Below are positions 22,743 through 23,755 of a DNA stretch of 64,000 bases, in pieces. The notes beneath the pieces were generated by a model. The model was not told the origin of the DNA, made no database searches, and saw only the letters and a program-made list of their open reading frames with translations. Location of the stretch: NCBI RefSeq assembly GCF_016758255.1, contig NZ_QYAD01000001.1:62001-126000 (forward strand), written 5' to 3'. The position numbers and the translations under genes are program-made. The DNA is from Leucobacter chromiireducens subsp. chromiireducens. GTDB lineage: Bacteria; Actinomycetota; Actinomycetes; Actinomycetales; Microbacteriaceae. Each line of letters begins with the position of its first letter. Within the stretch, counting starts at the first letter, position 1.

Positions 22743-23755
22743 TGCCCGATTTCCCCCCTCTCCCATCGGTCACGCCGCCCGGGTTCCGCCACGACCCCAC
22801 TGCCCGCATCCGGCCGATCAATTGGAACCGGGTGAGCGACGAGAAGGATCTCGAAGTGTGGAATCGCCTCACCGCAAACTTCTGGCTTCCCGAGAAGGTG
22901 CCCCTCTCAAATGATTTGCCCGCCTGGCAGGGCCAGCTCACCGCGGAGGCGCGCACGCTCACCATGCGCGTGTTCACCGGGCTCACCATGCTCGACACCG
23001 TGCAGGCGACAGTCGGCGAGATCGCGCAGATCCAAGATGCGCGCACGGAGCACGAAGAGGCGGTGTACACGAACATCGCGTTCATGCAGGCGGTGCACGC
23101 GCGCTCCTACTCCTCGGTGTTCTCCACCCTGACAAGCACGCCCGAGATCGACGACGCGTACCAATGGGCCGTCGCAAACGACCTCCTGCAGGAGCGATGC
23201 AAGAAGGTTCTCGTGCACTACTACGGCGACGATCCGCTCAAAAGAAAGGTGTCGTCCACCCTGCTCTCGTCACTCCTGCTCTACGCGGGGTTCTACCTCC
23301 CCCTCCACTTCTCTGTGCGCGCGACGCTCACCAACACCGCAGACATGATTCGGCTCATCCTGCGTGACAAGGCCGTGCACGGCTACTACTCCGGCTACAA
23401 GTACCAGCGCGGCCTGGAGACGAAGAGCCCCGAGCGGCAGGAAGAGATGCGCAAGTTCACCTTCTCGCTGCTCGAGGAGCTCTACGAGCTTGAGCTCGCG
23501 TACTCGGGCGAACTCTATGAACCGCTCGGCCTCATGCCGGATGTGGCGGCATTCGTGCGCTACAACGCCAACAAGTCGCTGATGAACCTGGGATACCCCG
23601 CCCGCTTCGCGGCAGCGGAGACCGCGGTGAGCCCGGAAATCCTTGCTGCGCTCGCTCCCGGGGCTGACGAAAACCACGATTTCTTCTCGGGATCGGGGTC
23701 GTCGTACGTGATCGGCCGCGCCGAGGAGACAAGCGACGCCGACTGGGACTTTTAG
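22739..23755 (+). CDS. nrdF: NrdF ribonucleotide reductase radical subunit, metal-free class Ie (QSK) type
   Basis: The 338-residue ferritin-like protein is clearly NrdF ([37 protein letters not shown]). The six metal ligands of class Ib NrdF align to Asp86, Gln117, His120, Ser177, Lys211 and His214. Three Glu ligands are therefore replaced by Gln (codon cag 23087-23089), Ser (tcg 23267-23269) and Lys (aag 23369-23371). The radical tyrosine is kept as Tyr124. Gln/Ser/Lys at these sites is the published QSK signature of class Ie, which needs no metal and uses a DOPA radical made with NrdI. The start may be the second ATG at 22742, which shifts numbering by one. No nrdE is adjacent. Confidence 0.95.

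Follow-up and report, generated by a model that had tools for sequence, protein, structure and literature searches.

The pckG2-nrdI-nrdF locus of Leucobacter chromiireducens subsp. chromiireducens is, judged from its sequence, probably a manganese-starvation locus. Two Mn enzymes would be replaced in it by ligand-substituted isozymes, a class Ie ribonucleotide reductase R2 subunit (NrdF) and a divergent paralogue of GTP-dependent phosphoenolpyruvate carboxykinase (PEPCK), here PckG2, under the control of an MntR-type operator. The NrdF has Gln, Ser, and Lys (QSK) at the positions of three Glu metal ligands in class Ib proteins and falls in a separate clade, PckG2 has lost the Lys and His of its Mn site, the genes are linked, and the operator found between them is present also at mntH (Table 1). 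Because a second enzyme with a depleted Mn site lies behind an apparent Mn-starvation switch, the whole resembles a toolkit for Mn-free life. In the following, "the window" refers to the whole 64-kb stretch of DNA (64,000 nucleotides) that was analyzed.

Table 1. Features of the locus, given in window positions
Feature	Position	Strand	Evidence
pckG2, GTP-PEPCK paralogue with Ile241, Gln262, and Ser287	20088..22010	-	profiles, alignment
Palindromic operator site 1, TGTTCGACGCGTCTAACT	22073..22090	.	
Operator site 2, AATTGGGCGTGTCGTAGA; core GGCGTGTCGTAG at 22100-22111	22095..22112	.	
NrdR-like box 1, ACTAGATCTAGT	22137..22148	.	consensus
NrdR-like box 2, ACTAGATATAGT	22169..22180	.	consensus
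nrdI, flavodoxin-like putative oxidant donor of NrdF	22206..22742	+	NCBIfam TIGR00333, Pfam PF07972
nrdF, class Ie (QSK) R2 subunit, 338 aa	22739..23755	+	ORF, alignment, tree
nrdF codon 117, Gln (class Ib: Glu metal ligand)	23087..23089	+	
nrdF codon 177, Ser (class Ib: Glu metal ligand)	23267..23269	+	
nrdF codon 211, Lys (class Ib: Glu metal ligand)	23369..23371	+	

PckG2 and the M1 metal site

The pckG2 gene lies upstream of nrdI and is divergent from it. Its ORF comprises 640 codons and is numbered from the GTG, with a probable start codon in the ATG at 21947. The product scores 620.2 with NCBIfam PRK04210 (cut-off 504), is above the Pfam cut-offs for PF00821 and PF17297, and has as its top phmmer match 4r43, a canonical actinobacterial GTP-PEPCK, over the whole length. 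The same genome also encodes a separate canonical PckG. Three positions distinguish PckG2 from the canonical enzymes: the second Lys of LLGKK, at the Mn site, is Ile241, the Mn-site His of AEHM is Gln262, and the Cys of the P-loop is Ser287. The combination Ile/Gln/Ser is present in 20/20 distinct PckG2 copies and in none of 24 canonical PEPCKs; the latter have Lys and His in 24/24 cases and the P-loop Cys in 22, with Thr in the other two. Moreover, the 11 PckG2 copies from fetched loci all read again K-I, Q, S, and D-D.

We take His264 and Asp311 to be the other Mn ligands of the PEPCK site. In rat PCK1, the available text of PMC7948413 describes K244 as coordinating the OAA-bound Mn. Because Lys and His are missing from M1, PckG2 is here termed a paralogue and not an Mn-PEPCK. 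The substitutions suggest that PckG2 might act independently of metal; a metal could still bind, since the Asp of the Mn site is kept in 20/20 copies.

This feature raises the possibility that NrdF is a class Ie protein as described and that PckG2 has swapped Mn2+ for Mg2+ at M1, which would make it Mn-sparing and not metal-free. Oxygen ligands from Gln and Asp would favor a harder ion such as Mg2+ over Mn2+, both ligands lost from PckG2 are nitrogen donors, and one of them has become an amide oxygen donor; the conserved Asp is in keeping with the same idea. Ile is, however, incapable of ligation, and an exchange of ions at M1 is a reading that we take seriously without expecting it to hold.

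It could also be argued that PckG2 has ceased to be a PEPCK and travels with the nrd genes either as a pseudo-enzyme or as a kinase or carboxylase that acts on a different substrate. PckG2 is only approximately 40% identical to canonical PckG, and in 48 alignment columns each of the two groups is near-fixed for a residue of its own; P339K and G340D, close to the nucleotide, are among these columns. Nevertheless, the substrate and nucleotide landmarks (the P-loop GKT, GDD, HPN.R, GGR, and VNWF) are invariant in 44/44 sequences, 20 PckG2 and 24 canonical, and the PRK04210 score lies well above its cut-off. Selection on PckG2 is also as strong as on canonical PckG, with pN/pS values of 0.11-0.31 (five pairs) and 0.17-0.31 (three pairs), respectively. 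Loss of the PEPCK function is hence opposed by these data and appears unlikely.

The paired operator and the gene neighborhood

The gap between pckG2 and nrdI contains a conserved pair of palindromes with the sites 22-23 bp apart. The QSK and class Ib loci used for comparison were chosen by similarity to the window NrdF and not at random, and their neighboring genes were found by reference tblastn and clustering. The QSK totals (60, 62, and 56) include near-identical pairs (e.g., L067/L205, L200 to L203, and L071 to L073); L036 and duplicate loci were excluded from the locus counts for the operator core and for MntR-like, FMN-reductase, and binding-protein genes. Allowing at most one mismatch and at most 300 bp 5′ of nrdI, the core GGCRTGYCGTAG is present in 26/56 QSK loci (24 distinct upstream sequences), at 20 of the 21 pckG2 loci, and at one of 40 class Ib nrdI genes. 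Its absence from 30/56 QSK loci, including the tested Corynebacterium, Streptomyces, Gardnerella, and Bifidobacterium, counts against the proposed reading.

A symmetric matrix was built from 19 site-1 sequences and used with a cut of 14 bits, a value chosen after the first scores of the mntH and binding-protein genes were known. At this cut, matches occur upstream of eight of nine MntH-type Nramp genes (the ninth mntH scores 10.0) and of 11/30 ZnuA-type (metal-type) binding-protein genes. The controls gave 0/73, i.e., none at six other Nramp genes, 24 canonical pckG genes, and 43 class Ib operons. In this genome, the positives are mntH (14.7 bits), whose product passes the NCBIfam MntH cut-off, and an mntA-like gene (17.8 bits). 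Scored with a matrix made without the window and its nearest relative, L043, site 1 of the window reaches only 11.5 bits (per-position p 1.1e-4, 257 positions). With 60 column-shuffled matrices, 0.58 mntH matches were obtained on average at the 1e-4 level, with a maximum of seven (8/9 with the real matrix); at the 1e-5 level the average was 0.13 and one shuffled matrix reached seven, versus six with the real matrix. A loose half-site pattern is common genome-wide, with 85 and 88 matches compared with 43 and 43 when the pattern is reversed. In a palindrome scan of 16 Corynebacterium and other loci no shared site was found, and the operator matrix is too weak there. Near nrdI in L077, there is a sequence TGTTCAATCCCTTGAACA, which presumably resembles the C. 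glutamicum MntR motif. Taken together, the sequence data support regulation of the locus by a Mn-type operator, to which an MntR protein would bind.

Genes for MntR-like proteins were found in 22/60 QSK loci (20 at an identity of at least 48%) versus 0/43 class Ib loci, and they accompany mntH in L242 and L249 as well. These proteins belong to the DtxR family and have an FeoA domain; for the eight that were scanned, the best NCBIfam model is MntR, with scores below its cut-off. In L200, L201, L202, L204, and L207, a second, more distant DtxR-family regulator (~30-35% identical) lies opposite the MntR-like gene. A match to a metal binding protein (identity at least 25%) is present in 16/62 QSK loci; the binding proteins match Zn models as well as Mn models, with scores below cut-off, and in several islands the gene for the metal ABC binding protein lies 3′ of pckG2 on the same strand. 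An FMN-reductase-family gene is present in 31/62 QSK loci, always in the direction of nrdF (31/31), and in 0/43 class Ib loci; the recurring enzyme may be what reduces NrdI in class Ie systems. In the window itself, no MntR-like gene was found within the 64 kb, and near nrdF there is no gene for an FMN reductase or a metal binding protein; both results count against the reading of the locus proposed here.

Several other features of these neighborhoods were observed. The FMN-reductase-family gene lies 3′ of nrdF in, e.g., L037, L055, L058, L201, and L204, and in Actinotignum (L084 and L085) it precedes nrdF and nrdI was not found. A paralogue of alanyl-tRNA synthetase of ~470 residues, corresponding to the N-terminal part of AlaS only, is encoded 3′ of the QSK operon in Brevibacterium (L058-L060) and in L036, and is absent from the window. 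A small conserved ORF of ~100 residues is located near QSK loci (L044, L046, L061, L067, L201, L202, L204, and others); the one copy scanned (L204, 12470-12775) gave no Pfam match.

The association between pckG2 and QSK nrdF extends beyond the window. Both are present together in 10 fetched islands, and in G167 nrdI adjoins pckG2 where the contig ends. In an even draw of 398 genomes of the family, pckG2 was found in 12 and QSK NrdF in 14, with both in 12 and QSK NrdF without pckG2 in G011 and G076; the Fisher p value of 3e-21 for this co-occurrence ignores relatedness and linkage. Among 149 relatives and the genome itself, QSK NrdF at an identity of at least 82% is present in 14 genomes, one of these partial, and PckG2 in seven. 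Two more distant genomes of these seven, G118 and G101 (88-89% complete), carry pckG2 without QSK NrdF, which counts against the proposed reading. The lone pckG2 of G118 (L167, 6882-8741, + strand) lies between ribosomal-protein and tRNA-modification genes and has the I/Q/S changes; at L167 there is no operator, and no QSK NrdF was found in that genome. A plasmid-borne island was also considered and rejected: 58 plasmid records have PckG2 matches, none of which reaches 60% identity, and plasmid NrdF matches at E up to 1e-120 are two only, both at ~66%.

The linkage might reflect nothing but a co-transferred block, with no common physiology and an operator that serves the nrd genes alone. The patchy distribution is in line with this idea, as is the correlation between PckG2 and NrdF distances (r 0.64 over 19 loci, 0/2000 permutations), which is expected under linked transfer, and the Fisher tests are uncorrected for relatedness. 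What makes such a block quite improbable is that the operator core marks nearly every pckG2 locus and that the operator is also found at mntH and metal-transport genes. Moreover, in several islands pckG2 shares its strand with a binding-protein gene 3′ of it, and the ligand losses in both enzymes hit Mn sites.

NrdF, NrdI, and the R1 partner

According to the original prediction, Gln, Ser, and Lys replace three Glu in NrdF, while Asp86, His120, His214, and Tyr124 are kept. Positions 86/117/120/124/177/211/214 indeed read D/Q/H/Y/S/K/H, and the interval 23087-23371 is the exact span of codons 117 to 211. The best PDB matches are 8rag/8rah, the QSK R2 of Gardnerella (B. vaginale), with E ~2e-152; the Mesoplasma entry 6gp2 is also among the rows of this search. 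In the HMMER alignment to 8rag/8rah, the Gln, Ser, and Lys are opposite Q143, S203, and K237, and D112, H146, Y150, and H240 of the Gardnerella protein are matched by the same residues in the window NrdF. The three substituted residues of Gardnerella are those named in the available text of PMC11846895. The second NrdF of the same genome (L001) reads DEHYEEH at the seven positions. A quick tree built from 123 distinct NrdF rows has 53 QSK and 69 EEE rows on opposite sides of a branch with an SH-aLRT value of 100; the sole odd row, L036 (Q/Y/E in the three columns), is placed on the QSK side. Since the QSK rows form a well-supported clade of their own, the pattern in NrdF is not due to chance.

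The predicted assignment to class Ie is supported by the Q/S/K columns and the kept D/H/H/Y, by the way nrdF overlaps nrdI, and by the placement in the QSK clade. The protein itself is of an already described kind, a class Ie QSK protein in an nrdIF arrangement, and by analogy the window NrdF would be metal-free with DOPA at Tyr124. That it is instead a decaying or non-functional paralogue, a reading that the original prediction also turned down, is very improbable: the genome does have a class Ib system in addition, and a degraded-looking relative with deletions lies among transposases in L036 of G133, but here the reading frame is unbroken, none of the retained ligands is missing, the C-terminal tail is present, and the clade includes a protein shown to be active. 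This relative (L036, 4322-5290, - strand) is a third type of NrdF sequence, 67% identical to the window NrdF, with small deletions and the motif D/Q/H/H/Y/E/H, in which the radical Tyr is changed to His. Its neighbors are genes for NrdI, an FMN reductase, the truncated AlaS paralogue, and a metal binding protein.

The nrdI product scores 146 bits with TIGR00333 (cut-off 74.65) and matches PF07972. Its gene overlaps nrdF by four bases, ATGA, which confirms the suggested coupling of the two genes. NrdR boxes had been proposed as well; two sequences that match the NrdR consensus do precede nrdI, with a spacing of 32 bp, and are putative NrdR boxes. An Rfam search of 18000-28000, intergenic region included, gave no match to an RNA element at E up to 1.

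There is no nrdE at the locus in the window, and the single R1 gene of the genome adjoins the class Ib nrdF elsewhere. In the genome, one PF02867 (R1) match (C1:246813-248369), two NrdF, and two NrdI were found; class III was outside this search. Downstream of nrdF, the window encodes a 220-aa protein without a family, a HAD hydrolase, and a PhnD/PhnC-type ABC system. These genes are not considered part of the locus because, among the tabulated loci, they are again beside nrdF only in L043. The phosphonate-type transporter genes (PhnD and PhnC matches) are at 25250-28807 (+ strand).

Proposed function and known systems

In the model that we favor, Mn scarcity would release an MntR-type repressor from the paired operator that separates the two arms, and nrdI-nrdF and the divergent pckG2 would both be turned on, with NrdR adding nucleotide control on the nrd arm. 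NrdI would act as the oxidant donor that converts Tyr124 to DOPA, and the DOPA radical would be generated in the absence of Fe and Mn. The class Ie NrdF is suggested to serve the single NrdE of the genome, which is otherwise the partner of the class Ib NrdF. PckG2 would catalyze the PEPCK reaction without the usual requirement for Mn2+ at M1, and both DNA-precursor synthesis and the PEP/oxaloacetate step could then proceed without Mn.

A bolder version of this model is put forward tentatively, as plausible but short of probable. In this scenario, the locus is an MntR-controlled Mn-free module that combines a class Ie ribonucleotide reductase with the first PEPCK lacking a functional M1 Mn site. 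The latter would use Mg2+ or a side chain, possibly Lys339, in the same way as a Lys replaces Mn1 in R2e, and the FMN reductase of some islands would be the missing reductant of NrdI.

Why a metal-free R2 is kept beside a class Ib enzyme becomes a testable question, as the operator predicts use during Mn starvation; pckG2 and the Mn-type operator together suggest when the QSK nrdF is likely to be used. A PEPCK without the Mn-site Lys and His also challenges the need for M1 Mn2+ in PEPCK chemistry. If the model is correct, ligands of two unrelated Mn enzymes have been substituted in one locus, and Mn scarcity would have left a direct genetic trace there.

Among the closest known systems is the class Ie enzyme of Gardnerella vaginalis. 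As described in the available text of PMC11846895, its QSK R2 has only trace Fe/Mn, forms DOPA upon co-expression with NrdI, and is active only as the DOPA form with reduced NrdI. The same source (John et al. 2025) lists, in that text, 275 QSK genes in 266 genomes, all of Actinomycetota, with the gene order nrdIF in 104 cases and an R1 that the QSK proteins apparently have in common with normal R2 proteins; the single R1 and two NrdF of the present genome agree with this. The window NrdF has three identical substitutions with D/H/H/Y kept, and nrdI is linked to nrdF here; NrdI is needed in the Gardnerella case. Unlike the Gardnerella system, the window operon is without nrdE and nrdH and its host has a class Ib NrdF too, and the N-terminal extension of NrdF differs from that of the Gardnerella R2e.

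With respect to regulation, the available parts of PMC13001254 list nrdI-nrdF2 together with mntABCD among the targets of MntR in Corynebacterium diphtheriae. This regulon resembles the regulation proposed for the window locus in having nrdI-nrdF under Mn-type control, a likeness that refers to the listed regulation alone, and differs from it in that the MntR table in those parts is without a PEPCK. PckG2 in turn resembles the canonical GTP-PEPCK 4r43 in its whole-length match and in its P-loop, GDD, HPN.R, GGR, and VNWF motifs, and differs from it at the Mn-site Lys (Ile in PckG2), the Mn-site His (Gln), and the P-loop Cys (Ser).

Starvation-induced exchange of an Mn enzyme for an isozyme that works without Mn has precedents in Staphylococcus aureus, where the accessible portions of PMC6684088 and PMC9973326 describe Mn-independent glycolytic isozymes, GpmA and an aldolase; PMC12421985 is a further source for such precedents. 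As far as these portions go, the S. aureus isozymes appear to belong to other families or types than the enzymes that they replace, whereas PckG2 would be an isozyme of the same family with its metal ligands substituted. In a literature search of titles and abstract openings, with subscription papers mostly outside it, no paper linked PEPCK to either MntR or class Ie enzymes, and the available text of PMC11846895 does not mention MntR, a carboxykinase, a flavin/FMN reductase, or a transporter. Relative to the class Ie paper, what appears to be new is the setting, a probable Mn-sparing module in which the QSK nrdF is accompanied by a ligand-substituted PEPCK.
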